Source: Owenia fusiformis
Lineage: Eukaryota > Annelida > Polychaeta > Sabellida > Oweniidae
Direction of reading: 5' to 3'
NCBI GenBank assembly: GCA_903813345.2
Contig: CAIIXF020000001.1
Location: 12,011,915 to 12,075,914, forward strand
Length of the DNA stretch: 64,000 nucleotides
The position numbers were made by a program, and so were the translations under genes. Positions 8,286 to 46,560 of this stretch are shown here, in pieces. The notes under the pieces were generated by a model. That model had not been told where the DNA came from, searched no databases, and saw only the letters and a program-made list of their open reading frames with translations. Positions within the stretch are counted from its first letter, which is position 1; each line of letters starts with the position of its first letter.

Positions 8286-9818
8286 ATAATTATGTATATT
8301 TATATATTGATTTTGGCTTGCACCATCCCTGAGCACTTTCCTTATAAGTAGTTTTGTCACTGCATGCTGACATGATGACTATTCATCTTACACCAGATCA
8401 AAAACTGATACTGTCCTTTTTGTACATTCCAAAATTTAAAAGCATACAATTTAGTTGAAACCCATCCAACAATATCTTGAAAGCATGACAATATATGACA
8501 AACATACCCATGGCCAATTTGATATCTGAAATAGGCGAATCCAAACAAAAAACTGAAGGAGATGTTTATGTCACTGTTCACTATGTGAAATTACTTCATA
8601 TATGTGTTACATGTTTAAATCACAGCAGTTTTCTTTTTAAAAAATGATGTTTAATGCAGGATGCATCCATGATGCATAATCCTATGATTAATTCACTGCA
8701 ACACTGACATGTCAAAACGTAGAATAATTTGTAGTTTGAAATGTTTATTTTGGATCCCATTGAGCACCATGGAAAATCATTGGCTTATACAGGTGTAGAC
8801 TCTAATCAAGTGTCAAGCTGGGAGAAATTTATTATTGTAAGGGATAAGGTATCATTAAACAGTCAAATAATGTATGATAAAAGCAGTAAAACTATGTCCA
8901 CTTTATACCATCTCTAATGTGTTTTAAAGTTTCACTTTTTGTTGTTGCCAAGATATAACAGTTAATAGCATCTTCGATCAATTAGGTCCGGACAAAGTCA
9001 AGAGCAAAGATATGTTTATTAGATAGTGGTGAACAATTATTAAAGTTCTAAGTTTTAAAACAAATTTTACAAATCAAAGATGGTTTTATTAGATAATGGT
9101 GGACAAAAAAGATGTTAGAACTTATATCATTCAATACGTGCCTGTTTGAAACTAGAACCTTAAATGGTTGAGATTAAGTGTTGATACTAGTTAAAAGGTT
9201 TATTTTAATGCTTCTGTTTTTCTTTTAGGTATTTCATTTGAGAATATTTGGACCAGGTTTTCAAAGATCCATGTACCTTATGACTGTTTTTAATACATCT
9301 TATCGTGTAGTAGTTTCTAGTATAAAGAATCTTGCCAGTGATTTTTTGACTATGCATGCTTTTAATTATGTTTTGTTTACTTTTCAAGGGAATATACAAC
9401 AGTTGTAACCAATTATTTGAAGAACTTATTTACATTTCTCCCGATCTTGTATTACAAACAGTGCAGAAATAATTTAGTCAACTTGCTATTTGATTTTTAT
9501 GTTTACACAAAATATTTTCAAAATATAAAATCTGTGTATTTTTCAATTCCATCTATACTATCAAAATCAGTTTTAAAATTGTACAAATAGATTTAGTAAT
9601 TCGACCTGTGGACGTATAATATCATTTAACAATGTTGCAATATGTCTAAGTAACAAGACACCATATTAAACCTACATACACTACCCGAGAATTTTAGAAA
9701 CTTATTTTACACCATTTACACCTATACATTTGTGTTTTCAAGTAGTTTACCCCATTCAAAAAACTTATCAAAGGCATTCAATTCATCATGTAGCAACTGA
9801 CAAAGAAACGGAACTCAC
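8286..9818. other. Non-coding stretch with a two-copy tandem duplication
   Basis: No exon recognised. Positions about 9005-9053 and 9076-9123 are a diverged duplicate about 70 bp apart: both contain CAAAGAT, then TTTATTAGATA and TGGTG followed by ACAA. Nothing else stands out. Confidence 0.4.
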
Positions 9819-29266: not shown

Positions 29267-29458
29267 TTATGTGTCAATGTTTGATAGTTCCCCAGTTATA
29301 TGACTGTCATGCATAGCAGCCAAATGTTCCACAATCAATTCTTCAATAGCAACATTGTTTTTTATTTGTTCTTCACTCAATGCTATTTTCTCTGCACAGT
29401 CTCTTGTAATAAGGACCACCTCAAGCTTCCTGGTTTCCAGTATGTTGGCTATCACCAC
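29267..29458 (-). CDS. PPCS: PPCS exon 7 (residues 251-313)
   Basis: Starts [10 protein letters not shown] after acceptor TTCAAG. Includes the [14 protein letters not shown] segment typical of the C-terminus and ends SNIDT before TAA. Confidence 0.94.
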   Translation of the reverse strand: MVIANILETRKLEVVLITRDCAEKIALSEEQIKNNVAIEELIVEHLAAMHDSHITGELSNIDT

Positions 29459-32400
29459 CTTGAAGCAAAGAATGACAATTCAGTGCTATTGAGGCTTAAG
29501 TAATACATTTATGTTTAGAATTAATTTGTAGCTGTATGATGAAAGGATGGGTATCGATATGGTGAACTTTTTGAACACGCGTTTCTTTTAAACCGGTCAT
29601 CAAAAATTTCTGCAAAATTTTACATTTAGTCAATTTAATGGTCATCTTTTGAATGGTAACAATATAATTTGAAATAAATATATATACTTTTCTCTATATT
29701 GTTTTAGAAAACACATCAGACTTTTCTTTTGTTCTTGGCATCATATGTTCAGAATGAAATGAAACATCTATCCGAACCTCATTGGAACAAAATGACATAA
29801 ACACAACGTGCTTAGGTAGGTCTCTCAATATTGTAATTGTACAAAGAAACGTTTGGTTGGTTTAAAAAAAAAATCTAGGTTTATCTTAATTTCTATCTAT
29901 TTTGGGGTTTTTGTTTTAATTTTTTGAATACTTTGTGCTTAATCAACCAAAATTTCCTTTGTATAACTATAATATTGAGAGGTCTAAGAAAATTTTGTAT
30001 ATGCTATTTTGTTCAAACAAGCTTTGGAAAGATATTTTATTTAATTCTCAAGAATTGGTAAAAAGGAACAAAAAACAATTGCACTAAAAAACAAAAATGT
30101 TAACAAAAACAGTTATATGTATAAAAAATATATCATAATATATATAATTTTCGCATTAAACTGTTGTCAATCAGTCAAAATTACATAAAGGACAGTGTTT
30201 TTTTACAGAATGTTTTCAGTAATTGGTTTAAGAGAAAAACATTGTTGAATTCAGTTCACCATATCGATACCAATCCTTTTGTTTTTTATTTCATTTTTTC
30301 TCATATCATCTAGCTCTTCTTTTTTAAATGCATCTTTATGTTAGATAAGATATGCTAGAATCAAGTTTGTTTTCCATCATTAATCCATACATATCATATT
30401 TTGAGATACAATGTACATGTAGATGACTGAGATCAACTAAGCATTTTATCTATTAACCCTTATTCATTAAACCAATGATAAGCTTGCCATATATGTACCT
30501 GATGGTCGTATGTTTGTAATGCTTTTCTGGCCTTAGACTCGAGTAAACTGACATCAGTTTCCAACTGTAAAATAAAAATAATCACAAGATGTTGACTTAT
30601 AACATTTTCTGTCAAAACGACACAATATAAGAATACATACCTTAGTGAACATTGAGATTCTCCAATGATATACTTTAAAACAATTTCAATTTTGAACATA
30701 TAGAACCTGAAGAATTTTAAATGCTCTTTGCATCAAGCCTCAAGTCATCTCCAGAATATATACAGATTATTATATAAAAGTGCATCTCCAATGATGTTAT
30801 GAATGATTGTCAAATGACACATTCTTCATGAGTGGTCCAGAACCCACCTTAAACGATGTAATGAATGCTTGAGGCACCCACTCTTTCACAAGTGGTCCAA
30901 GCATCTTTGGAACCAGCTGGAGATGTATCTGAAGAGGACCACCTGATGACTGGATTTTATGTTCAGGCTGAAATATGATACGATGATTTTTACTTTACTT
31001 TTTTTTTTATTTCGTAAAATACAAGAAAATCTATTTTTACATTAATTATATAATAAGATCAATTAATGAATCTCTTACATCAGAAAAAAATGGGATATAT
31101 GGGCTTGGCTATCAAATCCAAGATGCACAAAATATTTACAAACAATTCATCATATAAACTGCTCTTTTCATGGCAGCCATTTAACCAACATTAGTGAAGG
31201 GAATGGAAGTATTCCTTAAAAACAATCAAAGCTATTTCAATCTTACCATTTCACTGCTAGGAATGTAGAAATCTGAAACAGCTGCTGCAAGGTAGATCAT
31301 CACCTTGCTACCAACTTGACCCAACACCTGGCATGCAGCCTTCAGTAGATACAAGTATTCCCCTACTGCATTGAAGTCAACATTGAGTAGTCTCCGCTCA
31401 CTCTTTGATTGTTTATACTTGACCAGGATGGAACGTAGATTTGGTGCTTTCGCTTCATCAACTACAAAATTGCATAGAAAATTGTATAAAAGTTACCCTT
31501 TGCATCCATTGGACTTAGATTCTTAAAACATAATTTCATCTAGACTCTTTGAATTATTTATGGCTGGGCTGTGGCAGCCACTGGAAGTGGGGCAGGGCTG
31601 CTGAACTGCAAAATTGTCTTTACTATTCAGAGGTTGCTTTAAAACTTACTTCTGTGCTCAGGGTTTATATGAGTGACATTTACACCTACACTATGGGGAT
31701 TGGATCCCTGATCAGAATGCTTTTTATAATGTTTTAATCCACCATTTTTCAGATTAGATGTACAAAACTTATCTGATCCAATTTACCTCATATTTTTTTA
31801 AAATACCTGAAATGGTATCATCCTCTCCTACATGTAGTGCATCTAGCATGGTTTGTTGTGAGAAGTGCCTGGTATAGGGCTCTAGGGATCTGTGGCGATG
31901 GAGAAATATCACAGCATACCCAGAATCTAAGAAGTGTCTTGAGAATGTTAAGAATAAAATAATGCACAGGTATTATTTATATACAAAGTAACAAGCTCAA
32001 TGAGGTATAGTACTGATACAAAATAATAAAGGGTGAGTTTGCAAACTAAACAGAGTTCTCCTATCAAAATGGATTTGCCTATATACCCCTGAGACTCTTA
32101 TCTGATAGATAGAATGCACAAATAAAACAATAGTTTTGCTATTATAGGTAAAAAGTTCTCTTAAAATTTCGAAGTGATTTTTCCTGTTAATTCTGTCATT
32201 GATCTGCCATTTTTTGGAAAGTTACACTGAAACACAAACTCAATGAAACGAAATCACTCGAAAAAGACATGGCACACATCGTGAGCATGCGTACTAAAAG
32301 TTTAAACCAATCAGATTATTTGATTATTTTGCGCACATGAATTATTTGCTTCTGAGCACTTACCATAAAAGCTAACCACAATCAACAAACCTGGCGGAGA

Positions 32401-33132
32401 TTACCCTGGCCCTTACTTAATTTTGGCGAAATTTCAGGTCAAACTCGTGACAAATACATTATACATACGCTGGTATGAAGCCTTGGAGAAACTCATTTTG
32501 GTAATTATGATTTACGGTGTATACCTTTCTGCAGTTTGGGAAATTAAATGTTAGAATTCAAGAAAATATGAGACTTATACAACTTATCAATTAATTTATA
32601 TCAGCATTGTACCTGTCGTACCAAATATCCCCAACAGGCTCAAAGTTAAATGGATCTCACTCAAACTTTAAAGGATACTCTGCTGATGATGCCCCTCTAG
32701 TTCCAATGCTAAAGTTGTCAATAAATCGAACTGTACGGCTCTCCAAGGGTACTGTTGTACCACCCGACTGAAATTATGAAAGTGGAAATTGGCTCAGAAA
32801 ATATTAATACTGTTCATATATGAATAGATGTGAACATACACTTATGAATGTATATGAATATACAGTGTATTCAGCACAAACAGCAATGATTGTCACTGAA
32901 ATCAAATTTATTAAAATTAAATATTTCCGTGGGTGATAATTGAGCACAAAATAAAGTTTGATTTTACTTTTAAATGATTTTAAAGAGTAAATCTAAGTTT
33001 TACTGTTATCAAAACAATCTTTGTAGTCTTCCGCCTGTGAAACTCAACAAACTGTAGCATAGCTTGCTTCTTTGCATCGTAGTTGTCAGGAACTTTCGTC
33101 TGCTCAAAAAAATCTGAGGCCGTGGTCGCCAT
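29267..33132 (-). CDS. PPCS: Phosphopantothenate--cysteine ligase, complete 7-exon gene
   Basis: Joins (R)-4'-phosphopantothenate to L-cysteine at nucleotide cost, the second step of coenzyme A synthesis; the product is then decarboxylated by PPCDC. The enzyme is expected in the cytosol as a dimer. Exons on the minus strand: 33132-33004, 32767-32679, 31937-31807, 31461-31247, 30967-30848, 30564-30499 and 29458-29267. All six introns are GT-AG and the phases agree, giving 313 residues, close to the human enzyme (311). Landmarks: SGGT at 44-47 after the first strand, [11 protein letters not shown] at 58-68 (nucleotide-binding loop), AAAVSDFY at 175-182 (conserved Asp180), [14 protein letters not shown] at 189-202, SFKLETD at 226-232 and ANILETR at 254-260 (conserved Asn255). 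Every expected motif is present, so the gene looks functional. It is the monofunctional eukaryotic form, not the bacterial CoaBC fusion. A possible divergent gene starts about 355 bp upstream. Confidence 0.95.
29542..30279. mobile_element. TIR element inside PPCS intron 6
   Basis: GGTATCGATATGGTGAACT near 29550-29568 is mirrored at 30252-30270, and the similarity continues outward (AAAGGAT) and inward with gaps. The roughly 740 bp between are AT-rich with no coding capacity. It accounts for most of this longest PPCS intron (1040 bp). I see no clear target duplication. Probably a non-autonomous DNA transposon. Confidence 0.7.
30499..30564 (-). CDS. PPCS: PPCS exon 6 (residues 229-250)
   Basis: Twenty-two codons, starting LETDVSLL and ending ALQTYDHQ; acceptor TTACAG, donor GTACAT, both phase 0. 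A longer open frame running past the donor is intronic. Confidence 0.94.
30848..30967 (-). CDS. PPCS: PPCS exon 5 (residues 189-228)
   Basis: Exactly 40 codons from [12 protein letters not shown] through [12 protein letters not shown] to AFITSFK; acceptor ATTTCAG, donor GTGGGT. Confidence 0.95.
31247..31461 (-). CDS. PPCS: PPCS exon 4 (residues 117-188)
   Basis: Acceptor TTTGTAG; carries [12 protein letters not shown] and the core motif [16 protein letters not shown], ending in phase 0 at donor GTAAGA. Confidence 0.95.
31807..31937 (-). CDS. PPCS: PPCS exon 3 (residues 73-117)
   Basis: Acceptor CTCAAG completes Glu73; encodes [17 protein letters not shown] and a variable acidic segment to a split Val codon before donor G|GTATTT. 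Confidence 0.92.
32679..32767 (-). CDS. PPCS: PPCS exon 2 (residues 44-73)
   Basis: Acceptor TTTCAG; encodes SGGTTVPLE and the loop [16 protein letters not shown], then two bases of a Glu codon before donor GTATCC. Reading on through the donor would meet a stop within a few codons, which supports the splice. Confidence 0.93.
33004..33132 (-). CDS. PPCS: PPCS exon 1 (residues 1-43)
   Basis: ATG at 33132-33130, then an N-terminal helix region and the first strand KIVLIT; phase-0 end at donor ACA|GTAAAA. The ATG is chosen because it gives a family-length N-terminus with no longer alternative needed. Confidence 0.92.
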
Positions 33133-33487
33133 CTTTGATTTCAAATCTCTAATTATCTCGCATAACTTTGAATCCTCATTCCACTAGTTACAATGAGTCA
33201 AACATCTTGAAATTTTCCTGCAGGTATCTCCGTGATATAGGAAATATATGACATGTATTTCATATCTTAATATATCTTATTGATACCGCAATCTGGTGTT
33301 GAATGTAGTCTCCGAGTTCAAGGTCACCGAAATCTCGTCAATTTTTGCAGCAGCAGAAAAGGTTTGGAAAATACAATTTCTTCAAAATATACATCTTTCA
33401 TGTATCAAATATCCAAAACTTATTAATTTTGATATATTTTTAGATTTAAGTTTACGACTGATTCATAAGTTCAACGGCGAAAGACCA
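33133..33487. promoter_or_regulatory. Possible bidirectional promoter region
   Basis: The interval separates the PPCS start codon (minus strand) from a candidate first coding exon on the plus strand. Head-to-head spacing of a few hundred bases is common for housekeeping genes. I see no TATA box or CpG island, so this rests on layout alone. Confidence 0.35.
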
Positions 33488-35161: not shown

Positions 35162-36912
35162 AAAGGCTGTCACTTTCACACCATGCAGACAGATCGCTAG
35201 CCTTGCCCAAGTCGGTATTTTTTTTACTAATCTGATCTTGAATTATTACCGCCTTGTACAATCCAATACATCTCCGCTGATATTGTGATGAGATATTCAA
35301 TGGTTTCGAGATTTCCATAATACGTACACTATCAGGGGTATCGCGAAACCTTATTGATTGACAGATCACGTGGACGACGCGACGTGTGTCTTCAGGCTGA
35401 TTGACCAATCAAAACGTTATCAGGTTGAGCTGCATAAACAAAGCAAACTTCCCGTCTACGACTTGAAATTGATCTGATCGAGTGTTTCTTTAGACTTGCA
35501 ATATCATTCATGAAAATATTATGTAATTAAATGTACATTGGAATGTAAGAGTCATTAATATAAATTAAATCATGCGATTCAATGTTGATTTAAAATTGAT
35601 TTCGCAATGAAAATGCACGATGAAAATGTAGCGGGTCATTGATCGAGTCGTCAATCAGTGATTCAATCTCAGCCTACATGTTCGATCATTTGAATTCAGC
35701 GATCGTTTCAAAGTTTATTGTTGAAATCTTATCACCTCCAGTTATCCAATCGATGCTCCGGCATCCACTAAACTCTGATTGATATTTATCTGATAAAATA
35801 TTTGTATTAAGTTTCATGATGAATTCGTGCAAGATTTGTTCGTGAAAAGTCCCGGTTCAAAGTGAAAAGTGTTCTTGTTTTTGACCGTGCATAATAATGA
35901 GCTGACGCTACTGGGCCGTCGTTGATTGGTCAAATGTTACCGACATCAACAAACTGTCGGTAAAGCATATGGCTTTCTCTTTGGTACAAGCCGGTCATAA
36001 TAGAAATCAAGATAAGTAAAAGAGACCGACTTGGGCAAGGTTAACAGATCGCCTAAAATTGCATTCGTATGATGTGAGACCCGACATTCACCGGGAAAGT
36101 AGAAACATTTTGTCACCCATGATGCAGATTAATTTTTTACTGCTTAATAAATGATGAATGACAGTCATATTAAGTTCTATATGTTTGAGAATAGCATGTC
36201 GTCTTGATATTGCAAGGTAACTCGTTCGAAAAATGATGACGGTGATTGAAATGATGATGTAAAGATAAAATGCAACTAAATATTTGTAAATTTCTTTGAA
36301 AAACTAAGAAAATCTCATATTGAATTTTCCAAAACAGGAAAAACATGTATAAATATTAAGGCATGAAGGTCCGATTCCCCCTGTTATCATTAACATTGGT
36401 CTCGTATAAGTCATACAATTGATATTTGAAACCCAAATATTATTCAAACTTATGATAGGACATAAGTATGATGTGTACTTCAATGTAATATTAATCATAC
36501 TGATAACCGATCATAAGTTCGAATGATAGTTGTATGAGACCAATGTTGATGCTACCAGGGGGAATCTGACCTACAGGCCTTACTTTTTATATATGTTATG
36601 TGCTGGTGTGAAAAATTTGATATGTGATGTATATTTCTTAGTTTTTCAAAGAAATCTACAAATGTTTCATTACGGTTTTATCTTTACATCGTAAGTACGA
36701 TCACCGTCATCACTTGAAATATCAAGACTTCATGCTATTCTCATACTTATAGAACTTAATATGACTGTCATTCATCATTTATTAAGCAGTAAAAAATTAA
36801 TTTGGTTCATGGGTGACAAAATTTTTCTACTTTCCTGGTGAATGTTGAGTCTCGCATCATACGAATGTAATTGTTGGCGATCTGTCTTCATGGGGTGCAC
36901 TTTGTTTGGTCT
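35162..36912. mobile_element. Compound foldback element
   Basis: Three nested inverted repeats share the word ACAGATCGC. (1) The outermost ends, 35162-35197 and about 36877-36912, carry inverted CACTTT...CCATGnAGACAGATCGC sequences. (2) 35187-35260 is inverted at 35983-36053, with GCCTTGCCCAAGTCGG and its complement. (3) 36044-36425 and 36505-36886 are two long arms, about 380 bp each, forming an 840-bp palindrome around an 80-bp centre. No coding capacity. The layout fits a foldback element, or one TIR element inserted at the end of another. Confidence 0.75.
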
Positions 36913-38215: not shown

Positions 38216-38929
38216 ATGGCAAGATTTTATTTGAAACAATATTGGACAACTTTCATGGTGTTGAGTCTCTGGCTATTATGGACTATGCTTCATTCAGCTG
38301 TTGATAAGTGTGTTGCTAATAATCCATCAACTCACTTGATTGGTGAAATAAAATTAGATGAGATCTTTAGAAAAGACATGAAAAGATGGGACTCTAAAAA
38401 GCATGAATCTGTTAACCACTCTAAACAAATAGACACTGAATTGGCACCAACGTTTGGACAATATCTGACAAGTCTGAAGAAACGTAAAAGAAAACCAACT
38501 GCAACTAAAACCAAGAAGAGGATGAGTCAGAAAGGAAAGGATTTTAATGGAGATAGTAGAACAAAGAATAAAATTATTCAGATGAGTGGTCAGAATCATA
38601 TTGAATCACTAAAAAAACACTCAAATCATGAAGGATATCATAACGAAATAGACCTTAATGATAAGACTCAGAAAGTTTCGAAAAAGAGAATTATCAAATT
38701 TGCAAATAAGTATCCTAACAATCTTTTGGAAGATCCCATAGATCCCAAAGGTAATGAAGGCACATATCAAGTAGACTTTCCAATGGATGTTGATGATAAT
38801 GTTGATGATAAGGATGATGATGCTTTGCTTGGTGAACTTGAGATAGACCTTGACTTTGAAGGAGTTGTTGCGTTGCATGAATTTCAGTCGTACAAGTACA
38901 TGTATGTGCCAGAGCTAGAAGAGGAATGA
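38216..38929 (+). CDS. Unrecognised secreted protein, charged, 237 residues
   Basis: A single uninterrupted frame from an ATG with A-rich context to TGA. Residues 1-28 look like a signal peptide (hydrophobic core FMVLSLWLLWTML, likely cut after HSA). The rest has one cysteine (C32), a very basic segment (about 86-120, with dibasic clusters KKRKRK at 88-93 and KKR at 100-102 and 156-158) and an acidic segment (DVDDNVDDKDDD, 191-202) before a tyrosine-containing end. Clusters of basic residues could be convertase sites, as in a prohormone, but no peptide with an amidation signal is evident. I do not recognise the family. An acceptor at 38164 suggests a preceding 5' UTR intron. The length, signal peptide and biased composition favour a real gene. 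Confidence 0.65.
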   Translation: MARFYLKQYWTTFMVLSLWLLWTMLHSAVDKCVANNPSTHLIGEIKLDEIFRKDMKRWDSKKHESVNHSKQIDTELAPTFGQYLTSLKKRKRKPTATKTKKRMSQKGKDFNGDSRTKNKIIQMSGQNHIESLKKHSNHEGYHNEIDLNDKTQKVSKKRIIKFANKYPNNLLEDPIDPKGNEGTYQVDFPMDVDDNVDDKDDDALLGELEIDLDFEGVVALHEFQSYKYMYVPELEEE

Positions 38930-40488: not shown

Positions 40489-41650
40489 CACACTACCCTA
40501 CCTCGATCACGCATGCGCGAATTTTTTGGCTTTCAATCGGGTCGCTTTTGAGTATATCGACTGCTTACTCAAAAGGTTAATACGTTTGGTGCTCGGAGTG
40601 AGTCAATATTGCTATTCGCTACACTTCAGTGGTGCAATAGTGAAGTCGATGTTCCAAGTTATATGATAGTTATAGAAAGAATGAAAATAATATCGTTTTA
40701 AATTTTAAAATATTTGATATGTCATAGTACACGGTACACAGTTGCAAAAGTTGATCAATACAGGGTACAAGGAATGTAAATTGTTCAATAGTACAGGGAG
40801 CGAGAAAGTAAGCTGATTATACAGACATACTATGTCCCGACCTCATGTACATTTACGTTGCAAACAGTGAAAGTAATGCTAAAAAGGCCGCCTGTTGATG
40901 CTTTGGGGTGTCATCAATTGTTATTCAATCCAAATAAAGTAAACATTATTTTGTAGATTTTGACACGGGCTTTCAGGTCGTATGCATTTTAGTCATAAAA
41001 TTAACAAGAACGCTAGATTATACGTGTTACTAAGGTATCAAATTGAAATAAAATAACGAAATTAAATATTAAGACGTTAATGATAAATGACTATCCGCTA
41101 TCAGTATTAATGACTATCCGCTACTCAGAATAATTAAAATTGCCTGAACTGCATGTGCAGAATCTTTCTATATAACCCCTTGAATGATATAATTCACTAC
41201 CGTCCTCAAAAACCGATCATTTAAAACGTTTTGTTCAAATTCACAAAAATACAGTTGAATAACATACTAGAAAACGTATCCACCTATAACACGATGACAC
41301 GCAGTTTAAATAATAGTTAATTGGGTTTTTTGTTACATATCAATGTAACATTTTCGAAGGGAAACTTACATGCTCCCTGTACGTTGACAGATTTACTGAA
41401 ATGTATCGTGTATTGCATTCGAGTTTTGCTTCACTGCGCCCACTATTATCTATCTTTGCCTATAGTGGTCTTTTGCCAACAATATTCTAAAAACTGCTTG
41501 ATGAATCAATTCTATATCTGATAGAACACTAGAAATAAATGTAAAATGTATTTTACGTTCAGAAATATGGAATTAAACCCACGTCCTCCATTTGCAACTT
41601 AGCTGTACCCTGTCTCCATTTTAAACGTGGTCACGTGGTAGGGTAGTGTG
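40489..41650. mobile_element. 1.16-kb DNA transposon with CAC-type ends and 5-bp duplication
   Basis: Perfect 14-bp TIRs, CACACTACCCTACC at 40489-40502 and its inverse at 41637-41650, flanked by exact 5-bp duplications TAACT (40484-40488 and 41651-41655). The interior is 1.1 kb without a transposase; it has CpG-containing ends (ACGCATGCGCG; ACGTGGTCACGTGG). A CAC start plus a 5-bp duplication is the pattern of Transib/ProtoRAG elements, but some hAT groups also make 5-bp duplications, so the class is open. An open frame at 41321-41521 lies inside and shows no transposase motif. Confidence 0.85.
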
Positions 41651-41655
41651 TAACT

Positions 41656-42562
41656 GTATCATACCCATGAATTGAGGGGTTGCTTCCATTTGAGGGATTT
41701 CTTGTAGTTGTGCCTAAGCTTTACTTTCATTAATGAATGATGTTTTTGGGGCCCTGTTATTACTATGGTTACTAATGTTTTATTCCATGGATTAATTAAT
41801 TCTGACTCAACAATTTCTCATGTCAAGGATAAAATGGTATAAACACGCAATATGCAATTTTTATTATTTCATTGTTATTGGTTATTTATACGCAGTATCT
41901 ATGTATACACCATGACAGACCTGTTATATCTCTTGCAATAACCATAAATGTCATTTCATGATACTTGATATCTTCATTTTATAGCGTTACATTCTGTTCT
42001 GAACCTCAACTTTGGCTGTTTTAGTCATGTTTTTGTTATTTAACTTTAAAGAGAGAATCAGATTTAGTGAGCATGCTAAACAAAAAATTTTCAATTTTGG
42101 TAAAACCCAAAGTGCCTAAATATGACAAATTTTCAATTTACATAAATTATGTTTCGAAAAGTGTGTAATTTTTGTGCATGTTGTGACTAAATCAAAATGA
42201 AATCAAACTCTGTATATTGATACAGCAATATCATTATAGCAAAAGCAAGGAAATGAAAAATGCCCTGGTAGTTGTATACGATACAGGCAATATTATTTAT
42301 AACTTTTATTGACATATTGTATCATATCATGATAACATTAGTCAAAATCCTGTTATCATGATATATTTTGTACTTTAGTCTTTTGTATTATGTCTTGATT
42401 TGTTATTAACATTGATCCTATGATGATTTACTAACTATTTGCTTTGTTCTGATGAGTCTGGATCTTAGTGATTAGAGCTTATATACAGTGTATATATAAT
42501 CTGAATTTACATGAACATTATCCTATATCAGTATTTGGCACTGTGTCACTTAGAAATTTCAG
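41656..42562. other. Non-coding stretch
   Basis: AT-rich, no supported feature. Confidence 0.4.
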
Positions 42563-42682
42563 TTAGGGTGAAAACAATGTGAAACTAATCGGAAAATTTA
42601 TGGTTCACTAATAGAGTAACCGGGTCTCTATGAAAAAAGTCCTATCCCTTCTCTCACATTAGTTTCATATTACCCTTCATAT
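42563..42682. repeat. Short imperfect inverted repeat
   Basis: AGGGTGAAAACAATGTGAAACTAAT near the left end is mirrored imperfectly by ATTAGTTTCATATTACCCTTC at the right end. About 120 bp, non-coding; possibly a small decayed TIR element. Confidence 0.45.
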
Positions 42683-42840
42683 TTTTAACAGAGAAACTCT
42701 ATAGAGGTTTTGGAATAATCTGCTGTTAAGTATAAGTAATAATGAGTTTGTCTAATAATATATATAAAATCTTTTATACAAAATGATGTATATTTGGCAC
42801 AGTCTGTATGGATACACTGAACAAAATCTTACTCATACAA

Positions 42841-43181
42841 TTGAAAATTTAGTCACATAGCTCTCCCTGTTAAAGAGGGATATGTCGATTATGATGTTTT
42901 TAGTAACAGTGCATGTCTCTTAACAGAAGCTCAAGTAAAGTGGTTTCTGTGTCATACAAGGATTTCAATGATGTCTTGTTTCTATGACACAATCATGTAC
43001 ATTTTATTAGACCTATAAATAATCAAATTGAAAATAAAATGAAATCTGTATTATATATCACAAAAACTCCAGAAACCACTTTATTTGAGCTTCTGTTAAG
43101 AGACATGCACTGATACTAAAAACATAATAATCAACATATCCCTCTTGAACAGGCAGAGCTATGTGACTAAATTTTCAATTT
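42841..43181. mobile_element. Foldback element, two arms of about 110 bp
   Basis: The arm at 42841-42950 (starting TTGAAAATTTAGTCACATAG, containing ACAGAAGCTCAAGTAAAGTGG) is inverted at 43070-43180 with a few mismatches, around a 120-bp AT-rich centre. No coding capacity. Target duplications are not evident. Transcripts through it would form a long hairpin. Confidence 0.75.
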
Positions 43182-43977
43182 TAGATATCTTCTTAGTCTT
43201 GAAACAAATAAAGATTTTTCATTTTGAATTATTTTTCATTTACATTAGTTTGACATCAGTCAGTGCCCCTCCAGTATCTATGCTATGCCTCAGTGGCAAT
43301 CTCCTTAAGTGATTGATCTGTGAGTTGTTTCCTATAACGTGGATGTAACCCTAGTATCTTATTCTATTTTTGTAGTCAGTGTGAGGTTAAATAACTCATT
43401 CTCTATTGTGCGAATTGATTTATAGTGCCTGCCAGTTTATCAGCATGGGAGCTTTATAATTTAATGTACTCTGATTATAGTTGATCTGTTTCCAAATACT
43501 GTAACATTAAAAAGTCGTTTCGGAACATCAAGGCTGAGTAAAAAATTAATTACAGGATATAGATGACTTTAATATAATACATACAGTACAATAAAATGAT
43601 ACATTATTGAACAATCATCATATATTATTTATTTTGTGACAATGTAATGTGACTAAGTATTTTTCAAAAGGTATAGGCTATGCTGAGTGCCATAGACTTT
43701 TTCTGACTTTGGTTAAAATAAGCTTGTACTTACTTATATGATTCCTAAATATGCTTTAATTTTTTAACAAAATGAGGTAATTCATCAACAATACACTGAA
43801 AAGGTATTCTTGTGAGATATCTAGAATTTTTTCTTGAAGGTGCTCATTGAACTCAAACGAGCTTTATGTTAACTCATCGTGCCATGGAATAATAATTTCT
43901 ATTTTCTAGCTTATACGTCAATTATTATAGAAGTTAGACCAATCTGACATCCTTGTTTAGTGTACTTTAAGTTTACT
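43182..43977. other. Non-coding stretch
   Basis: No supported feature; on the minus strand it would be the 3' flank or UTR of the gene at 44028-44999. Confidence 0.35.
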
Positions 43978-44016
43978 CATGGGCTTTCGCGAAAGCTTTC
44001 TCTTGAAAGCCCATGG
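43978..44016. mobile_element. Miniature hairpin, TGGGCTTTC family
   Basis: CATGGGCTTTCGCGAAAGC followed by TTTCTCTTGAAAGCCCATGG. The outer stem is the same as in the 28-bp insertion at 21684-21711, with an extra inner palindrome (CTTTCGCGAAAG). It lies 11 nt past the stop codon at 44028, in the likely 3' UTR. Flanks share only GTTTA, so a duplication is uncertain. Confidence 0.55.
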
Positions 44017-44027
44017 TTTAATGCATG

Positions 44028-44657
44028 TCATAATAGTTTTTCTTGAACCGCATGATGCTCGAATATAGGAGAGTTTCCTTCAGATTTATCTTCATCAGAA
44101 TCAGCCTCGATCCAAGGTATATTAATCAAAGTATCTGTAAAATCTTTGGGCTGATCCTGCATACATAGTACCTCATCAGATATGGTCATTCGGGAACTAC
44201 AAGGCAATATAGATGTTTCTTGTAAATCTGATATGCTACATTTATCATTTATACTGCCGTTGCAACTAAAATTGGTATCACTTAAGATTTTATCAATGAT
44301 AGATATTGATATTATCCTCCTATTTTGGTTTCCTTTTTTGAGAGTACTTGGTATATATGATGTTATATTTTGATTTTGATATCGTTGAGTCGCTTTAAGG
44401 GATTCAAGACCTGAGTCGACAGATTCGCTGTACGATTTATGAAGTCTCGTGTTATTTACTACTGTTTGCCTTGATCCTCTGTCATCCTTAATGCTGAGGG
44501 ATATTGTTCTGGGTACTACATGCATACCAATGGGTGTTAGGAGCTGCTCCTCTCTATCCATGTGGTCAGTTCTCACATACTGTAAGGCCTTCTGTGTTGG
44601 GTATTGGATCATTGTAACAAATGTATCATTCTTTGAGACACATTGTCTGGCCTGTTG
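44028..44657 (-). CDS. Second part of membrane-protein frame, beyond an in-frame TGA
   Basis: Continues in the same frame after the TGA at 44660-44658: 15 open codons (QQARQCVSKNDTFVT), then MIQYPTQ and 187 further residues to a stop. The composition is protein-like: Ser/Thr-rich, with SESVDSGLESL (near residue 40 of the ATG-started part), NRRIISISIIDKIL and an acidic C-terminus (EADSDEDKSEG). It reads as the distal part of the cytoplasmic tail of the protein starting at 44999. Alternatives are a separate cistron with an undetected exon, a recent nonsense mutation or a sequence error. No known domain recognised. Confidence 0.55.
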   Translation of the reverse strand, partial: QQARQCVSKNDTFVTMIQYPTQKALQYVRTDHMDREEQLLTPIGMHVVPRTISLSIKDDRGSRQTVVNNTRLHKSYSESVDSGLESLKATQRYQNQNITSYIPSTLKKGNQNRRIISISIIDKILSDTNFSCNGSINDKCSISDLQETSILPCSSRMTISDEVLCMQDQPKDFTDTLINIPWIEADSDEDKSEGNSPIFEHHAVQEKLL

Positions 44658-44999
44658 TCATAATAGTGTTTCCTCTTGACTAGGGGCCCGAGCATCTTCT
44701 TCAACAACAATTTGGAGGATCTCATCCTCCTCTTCGTCATCATTATACTGTCTTGGATCATTATCATCCATATCTTCATTGGAGCTACTGTCATCAAACT
44801 CGGGGACATCATGAATTACATGGTCATCAGTGTCAGTTATAATAGCATTTCGGTTAACTGTCTCCACATGTGTTTTATAGCAACAGTGTACTATAATCGC
44901 TATGACGATTATTGCTGTAAGGAGCAGTATCACAACTATGATTGTTATCTCCATGGAGTGGCTTGTTCCCAAGCTAGGTTGAACTCCATTAGGGTCCAT
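44658..44999 (-). CDS. Small single-pass membrane protein, paralogue of 46366-46560
   Basis: 113 codons from ATG (immediately preceded by in-frame TAA) to TGA. A 15-residue polar N-terminus is followed by one membrane segment (about 17-38, beginning MEITIIVVILLL), the juxtamembrane HCCYKTHVE and an acidic tail (DDSSSNEDMDDND; NDDEEEDE). No cleavable signal peptide is obvious, so the segment is probably a signal anchor with the tail in the cytoplasm. Met16 aligns with the start of the neighbouring gene's protein, whose membrane segment and H-CY-H-E-N juxtamembrane pattern match. The frame continues open beyond the TGA for 209 codons. I do not recognise the family. Confidence 0.65.
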   Translation of the reverse strand: MDPNGVQPSLGTSHSMEITIIVVILLLTAIIVIAIIVHCCYKTHVETVNRNAIITDTDDHVIHDVPEFDDSSSNEDMDDNDPRQYNDDEEEDEILQIVVEEDARAPSQEETLL

Positions 45000-46365
45000 T
45001 TAGAAACAATGTTTTGTGGGCTCTGTTAATGCCTCATATATTTTTTCAGTAATGGGCTCCAAGTGCCCTCATCCATTTAAATCCCACTTATATATTGTCC
45101 CTCATGTGCAACCTACATCTGAGTGAGGTCAGTTTCTTTAGGAACACCATTAAACTAAAAGCTTATATATATTTTCATCAGTGTCTTACATAAATAATGT
45201 TAAGTCAACCAACCCTCATGTCATCATTAATGCTCTCTGTATGAGGATTAAATTCTGAGAATACAGAGAATCATTAATTTTCTGTTCTGGAATTTTCAGC
45301 AGTGCAGAATGTTGCTTTAATCCCTTATGATAGCTTCTCAGTGTCTAATTGAAATATGATTCATGGATCAATGGCCTCAATAGTGAGATATCCCGTTGTA
45401 TTATAAACCGTCTAACCATCTCAGATATGATCACATATTTCTTTAACACACGCAAATCAATCTGCATCTAATTCATCCAACTCACAGACCCATCACTTTG
45501 TGCAGATATTAACCTATCGCTCTTATTAGATCACCTAAATTATTTAAAATCGATCAATAATTTCATTATATCAACTGATATCTTCGCAATCTGGCAAAAC
45601 TCCTGCTTGGTATGTTACATTGTCAAGAGACTGGTTATGTCAAACGAAGAGTTAAAATAATGATTTTACTATTATAAAATTGTCATTTCCGATCTTGTCT
45701 TATCTCGGAAATAAATGCATTTGTTAATGATTTTGCCATTCACTGAGCTCTTTACTCAATTATCTTGAGGACATATTTTATTTGCATTTAATTGTTGTTT
45801 TTACGAGTGATGAAAATGTTTTATTTTCTTTTTCTATAGTAATAATGATCGGAGAGTATTCACATCCTTAGATATTGTTATCCTATGAAGTGTCTAAATA
45901 ACTTGTGAGTTGTCCTCAGAATATTAGTCAAAGTTATGACTTTCAATAATGCCTTTTATATATAGGCTATGTATTGAATGTCATTGTCCTTTCCATTGAT
46001 GGACTTAATTGCTCTTTCATTAGCTGGAACAATTGAAGCTGTACTTTCAGCTTGGTTATTGTCTTTGTATTACTGTGTCCTAATTGTGTCAATTAGCAAA
46101 TGCCATGTTAAATGCCATTTGCCCGAAGAACTTTTGAATACGTTGTGATATTTTTGTCCGTAAATTACATGTGTTTTTACTGTTTATATGTAAGAAAGTT
46201 ATACTTTTATCAGTGAATCATTGCATTTGTCCAAAGAATACCTGATTCTTATTGTAAAGTTAATTTAAGATTGGTCATCAATATTAACTTGTACATAAGT
46301 TTGTTTCACAGTTCCACATTGTTTTTAATCTGTTCTCTATCTTTAGGTGATTAGTTTTAATTCTC
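45000..46365. other. Interval between the two paralogous genes
   Basis: AT-rich, with no coding sequence seen. It should contain the 5' UTR and promoter of the gene starting at 44999 and the 3' end of the gene at 46366-46560; a possible acceptor (TTAACAG) lies about 30 bp before the ATG at 44999. Confidence 0.35.
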
Positions 46366-46560
46366 CTAGAGCTCAACTACAACAGTTAAAGGTGTCCTGT
46401 CAGTGGTTCCATAATTATCATCATCTTCTTCCTCTATAATCTCATCCTCTTTCATAATATTCTTATTTTCCAGATGTTTAATGTAACACGTATGGAGCAC
46501 ACCTACTAGAATTCCTATTGATGTAGTAGTCAGAATGATCACAATGATAATTGCCTCCAT
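46366..46560 (-). CDS. Small single-pass membrane protein, 64 residues
   Basis: Complete frame from ATG to TAG, with an in-frame TAA 24 nt upstream and a possible acceptor CTGCAG just before the ATG. Residues 3-22 are a membrane segment (MEAIIIVIILTTTSIGILVG), followed by LHTCYIKHLENKN and an acidic stretch (EDEIIEEEDDDNY), ending TVVVEL. It aligns over the first half with the protein at 44658-44999: ME..II, VI-L, T-I, H-CY, H-E, N. The two genes lie head to tail and about 1.4 kb apart, as after tandem duplication. Family unknown; the hydrophobic C-terminal VVEL resembles a PDZ-binding end, but this is speculative. Confidence 0.65.
   Translation of the reverse strand: MEAIIIVIILTTTSIGILVGVLHTCYIKHLENKNIMKEDEIIEEEDDDNYGTTDRTPLTVVVEL

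Follow-up and report, generated by a model that had tools for sequence, protein, structure and literature searches.

An open frame on the minus strand of the stretch of DNA analyzed here (64,000 nt, hereafter the window) is interrupted by one in-frame TGA, and the sequence that ends at this internal stop is repeated almost exactly at the stop that closes the frame. The near-identity of the two repeat copies, together with the lack of any stop in the frame beyond the internal TGA, suggests that the internal stop arose lately, probably as a copy of the stop at the end of this frame. We tentatively favor, at a little under an even chance, a recent truncation in which a longer membrane protein, or one allele of it, was shortened. 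A recent nonsense mutation was among the alternatives listed in an earlier note on this DNA, and the repeat at the stops and the stop-free downstream frame lean in that direction. The repeat at both stops and a tandem paralogue with no detectable tail are new relative to that note.

Structure of the split frame

From the ATG at 44999 to the terminal stop, the frame spans 324 codons with a single internal stop. The first frame (44661..44999, minus strand, 113 codons) and the second frame (44031..44657, minus strand, 209 open codons), which we refer to as the tail, are separated by TGA1 (44658..44660, minus strand), which is followed by CAACAG (CAA CAG). The tail is closed by TGA2 (44028..44030, minus strand), which is in the same frame as the first part, and a TAA immediately 5' of the ATG at 44999 closes the upstream end. 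After rechecking the coordinates and counts, we found the anatomy described in the earlier note, two minus-strand frames in one phase split solely by a TGA, to be exact. Rereading the sequence likewise bore out its count of 15 open codons between TGA1 and the next ATG, the tail's own, at 44612 on the minus strand. The window is animal DNA and the standard genetic code was taken to apply, there being no sign of a variant code.

The first part is clearly and strongly coding. Its codon-position chi2 of 48.8 was reached by none of 5,000 background stretches, for which the 99th percentile was 15.6. It consists of a short N-terminus, one transmembrane helix and an acidic segment, and its hydropathy (3.51) is the highest among the ATG frames listed. 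Searches against Pfam gave only sub-threshold matches for it, to UL73 or SID-1, which we treated as chance, and no relatives of the first part or of the tail were confirmed in viral_contigs, the sole collection searched.

The tandem paralogue (46366..46560, minus strand) has 64 codons, also encodes a transmembrane and an acidic segment, and ends in TAG. In tblastn searches within the window it showed 40% identity to the first part over 47 columns, with E values of 2.9e-6 and 5.3e-7 in the two directions; these searches ran with neither composition correction nor low-complexity filtering, and hydrophobic residues make up about half of the aligned columns. Over 44 aligned codons the two genes are identical at 26, 28 and 18 first, second and third positions, respectively, and pN (0.39) is lower than pS (0.67), which fits purifying selection. 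Since the alignment with the paralogue opens at the ATG at 44954 (Met 16), this ATG may be the functional start of the first part. No tail was detected behind the paralogue and no relative of the tail elsewhere in the window (tblastn, E up to 1), and a comparison of the paralogue's 3' flank with the sequence around each stop, made in search of the ancestral end, gave no signal for either. The paralogue gives no sign of an ancestral tail, which counts against a recent truncation. The strong coding signal of the first part and its likeness to a gene that ends with no tail detected behind it are, on the other hand, among the points in favor.

The repeat at the two stop codons

The first copy of the repeat, TCAAGAGGAAACACTATTATGACA (44656..44679, minus strand), ends two bases past TGA1, and the second, TCAAGAAAAACTATTATGACA (44026..44046, minus strand), ends two bases past TGA2. 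A gapped alignment of the two has 21 matched bases, no mismatches and 3 gap positions. The copies are spaced by 630 nt, which is exactly 210 codons, and they lie in the same frame; a repeat search, which detected the pair on the opposite strand, returned the core as GAAACACTATTATGACA and GAAAAACTATTATGACA, again 630 nt apart. Ungapped, 13 of the 14 bases beside TGA1 and TGA2 match, a level of 13 or more of 14 in register that was found in 42 of 2,999,050 random TGA pairs, repeat arrays included. Among 2,997 TGA contexts, that of TGA2 is the top match for TGA1 (score 31, next 22) and that of TGA1 the top match for TGA2 (score 31, next 24); six repeat-rich stretches chosen by us were left out of the TGA-context comparisons. 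With free gapped local alignment and the same six stretches set aside, 154 of 1,500,000 random draws of TGA pairs scored as high, a count to which some inverted-repeat pairs and the observed pair, drawn at least once, contribute. As a separate observation, the TGA contexts at 36159 (plus strand) and 36774 (minus strand) align almost fully (score 78), probably reflecting an inverted-repeat element at that place.

Near-exact direct-repeat runs at distances of 60-1000 nt number 20 in the window, 17 of them not of low complexity. Clusters account for 15 of the 17 (6 at 50.4-50.9 kb, 5 at 53-54 kb and 4 at 62.7 kb), leaving the TGA1/TGA2 pair and one pair 70 nt apart at 9101 as the lone runs. The existence of this second lone pair slightly lowered our confidence in a recent truncation. 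The 13-mer CACTATTATGACA is not rare, since 5 occurrences with up to two mismatches were found in the window against 3.76 expected; the weight of the repeat comes from its placement at both stops and not from the 13-mer itself. The repeat was noticed post hoc, and it may be a coincidence. Besides identical Leu-Leu codons, the copied stretch covers the stop and the two bases that follow it, so that a common peptide function does not by itself account for the likeness.

The extent of the repeat also bears on whether TGA1 is a base error or an assembly artefact. TGA is one base away from several sense codons, but both frames are otherwise without frameshifts, and the likeness to TGA2 spans 21 bases, with which a one-base error would need to coincide. 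We regard such an error as improbable.

The same repeat could be read as a target-site duplication of roughly 20 nt, in which case the approximately 610 nt between the copies would be a foreign insertion and the gene would once have ended at TGA1, directly before the hairpin described below. The segment is indeed flanked by near-identical direct repeats of 21-24 nt (21 matched bases plus 3 gap positions), the paralogue has no detected tail, and the base composition of the tail is unlike that of the first part. However, the segment ends, inspected by eye, carry no A-tail and no terminal inverted repeat, and the segment has no second copy in the window and no Pfam family at the gathering score. 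An insertion would, moreover, have to be a coding fragment truncated at both ends that arrived on the correct strand and in the correct frame. On balance we consider this origin rather unlikely.

Coding potential of the tail

The tail's open frame is unlikely to have arisen by chance. Over the tail region the tail frame holds no stop, whereas the two remaining sense frames hold 12 and 26, and dinucleotide shuffles of the tail held a mean of 15.0 in-frame stops with a minimum of 3 (n = 3,000 shuffles). Four Markov models put the chance of 209 consecutive open codons at 9e-8 to 7e-7. The window holds 8,431 stop-to-stop runs, of which 3 reach at least 200 codons, and roughly 0.001-0.006 runs as long as the tail would be expected in it by chance.

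Codon usage was scored with models trained on neighboring frames. One source is the gene for PPCS (phosphopantothenate-cysteine ligase; 29270-33183, minus strand), which has three exons recognized by solved structures and three by reading. Three of the four stretches compared with solved structures match the PPCS chains 7edz and 1p9o, and the remaining one, taken for the first PPCS coding exon, had no solved-structure match at E 0.001; two further exons were assigned by reading alone. A 237-codon frame on the plus strand (38216-38926), with a signal-peptide-like start, a basic middle and an acidic end, matches no Pfam family up to E 1. The window also contains a non-LTR retrotransposon with an open 1,003-codon endonuclease/reverse-transcriptase frame (25622-22614, minus strand) and, at 42909-43110, an inverted repeat whose arms, about 39 nt each and almost perfectly complementary, are separated by about 125 nt; it resembles a MITE or foldback element.

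Of 2,000 background stretches, 5.7% had a codon score as high as that of the tail under the model built from PPCS plus the 38216 frame, and 8.8% did so under a model from PPCS alone. When the retrotransposon frame was in the training set the proportion fell to 0.05%, a model that puts the other two sense frames of the tail far above background too. The codon-position chi2 of the tail is 15.9, a value that 1.4% of 5,000 background stretches equal or exceed. Divided in two, the tail has no position signal in its 5' half (chi2 5.9 versus a background mean of 5.7) and a chi2 of 12.4 in its 3' half, reached by 4.4% of background; a control PPCS stretch of 215 nt scored just 9.7, indicating little power at such lengths. 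GC contents at the three codon positions are 0.43/0.37/0.31 in the tail versus 0.58/0.28/0.35 in the first part. The codon and position signals of the tail are weak, and this weakness of the coding signal beyond openness counts against the truncation that we favor.

No Pfam family matched the tail at the gathering score; a hit to BART (E 0.035, 14.7 bits versus a cut-off of 23) was treated as chance. Relatives of solved structure were absent up to E 5, and the AlphaFold2 single-sequence model of the tail (mean pLDDT 29.8) is uninformative either way. Under a simple neutral model with a ts/tv rate ratio of 2, at least one stop would be present in the tail at 95% probability by 0.11 substitutions/site. 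The stop-free tail, set against this model, suggests that it has been untranslated for a short time only or is still translated.

Stop-codon readthrough and the transcript end

The earlier note proposed programmed readthrough, in which some ribosomes would pass a leaky TGA-C and add the 209-residue tail, selection keeping the tail open. Two features speak for it. TGA1 is followed by C (TGA CAA at 44660), a leaky context, and the tail is open, being stop-free in that frame specifically; readthrough would yield an open tail similar to that expected after a recent truncation, which weakens the latter. According to PMC5100048, TGA with a 3' C is the favored context of insect (Drosophila/Anopheles) readthrough candidates, and just 9-10% of these candidates have predicted RNA structure. 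Nothing further spoke for readthrough. RNA structure after TGA1 is ordinary, with z values of -0.67, -0.48 and -0.62 for 60, 100 and 150 nt, and a strong hairpin is located after TGA2 instead. The coding composition of the tail is weak, and readthrough leaves the repeat at the two stops unexplained. On balance we consider programmed readthrough unlikely.

The hairpin (43975..44017, minus strand) starts 10 nt after TGA2. The 60 nt following this stop fold at -22.4 kcal/mol (z -5.41), and the z values for 100 and 150 nt are -3.13 and -2.52. An arrangement of TGA-C plus hairpin is present at the end of the long frame. A third in-frame TGA (43979-43977) lies inside the hairpin, so that a product read through TGA2 would be extended by just 16 codons.

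Regulated readthrough at a stop embedded in a 24-nt duplicate of the gene's own end is, in our judgment, highly improbable. If true, the C-terminal peptide would be almost the same in the short and the long isoform (QEETLL, QEKLL), on tails of very unequal length, an arrangement that would be elegant and testable.

No AATAAA or ATTAAA occurs within the tail, where the variants AGTAAA (44460) and TATAAA (44253) are present. ATTAAA at 44022 and AATAAA at 43633 are both behind TGA2. On this basis the transcript probably carries the entire tail, translated or not.

Splicing and selenocysteine

It is also conceivable that splicing removes TGA1, in part of the transcripts or in all of them, or that the frames are two separate units. 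The neighboring PPCS gene, an animal gene, has introns. Donors upstream of TGA1 are weak, the best of them (44819) standing at the 90th percentile among all GT sites. Of the acceptors after TGA1, the highest is at the 92nd percentile and the nearest are at the 77th and 78th; two of the five PPCS acceptors, at the 79th and 81st, offer no advantage over these nearest sites, an observation that raised the probability of splicing slightly. The tail's own ATG at 44612 would suit a separate unit. On the other side, four of the five PPCS donors score 2.4 to 6.3, a level that no donor before TGA1 attains; the remaining PPCS donor (-3.3) is no better than some sites before TGA1. The frame is unbroken on both sides of TGA1, so that an intron would need to hide in an open frame. 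The earlier note had raised an intron removing the TGA as a case against its proposal; our rough weight-matrix scan, which used approximate, rounded matrix values and PPCS junctions set by visual inspection, gave no convincing splice pair around TGA1. We consider splicing or separate units rather unlikely.

Selenocysteine, another possibility named in the earlier note, found no support. The codon is TGA, but no redox-type motif is visible around it. The SECIS element for which the note suggested a search was found neither with Rfam (no match at the gathering score in the window and, within 41500-45100, nothing from a SECIS family up to E 5) nor with a pattern scan, which gave no SECIS-like pattern in 44657-41500 of the minus strand, about 3.2 kb after TGA1; the two strands of the entire window together hold 3. 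The pattern scan was a simple one that could miss an unusual SECIS. We give decoding of TGA1 as selenocysteine next to no chance.

A proposed origin of the internal stop

Directly visible in the DNA are both frames, their repeated ending, the tandem paralogue and a tail free of stops; from them we infer the direction of copying, its age, a repair mechanism and the former joint translation of the tail and the first part. According to our proposal of a recent truncation, the gene, one of a tandem pair, would encode a single-pass membrane protein whose ancestral frame was most likely continuous to TGA2, about 320 codons. A short run of the final codons, including the stop, would have been copied in frame to a site 630 nt upstream, perhaps through a templated insertion made locally while a break was repaired. 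With translation now halting at TGA1, the product would have about 98-113 residues, about a third of the former length, and the tail would be left as 3' UTR that is still undecayed. The truncating allele could be either fixed or polymorphic in the species. In PMC4490562, templated inserts made by polymerase theta are described as exact matches to sequence very near the break, and 630 nt is far for such an insert, which counts against this route. If the proposal is right, the gene is a small and ordinary case of a tandem duplicate changing length, unusual in that the new stop is seemingly a copy of the old one.

Comparison with known systems

The Drosophila/Anopheles readthrough candidates described in PMC5100048 resemble the present gene in having a TGA followed by C and a long open frame past the stop. 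In contrast, RNA structure after TGA1 is ordinary here and the stop context is repeated at the frame end. The templated insertions of C. elegans polymerase theta (PMC4490562) are alike in being short stretches nearly identical to nearby sequence, whereas the source here is 630 nt away.

Animal selenoproteins with a SECIS element are alike in the internal TGA only, since no SECIS was found and no Sec-type motif seen in the present case. Recently truncated paralogues and pseudogenizing alleles occur in tandem gene pairs, and these share with our gene a tandem paralogue, a single internal stop and an undecayed downstream frame. What sets our gene apart is a stop that looks copied from its own terminus instead of created by a point mutation.
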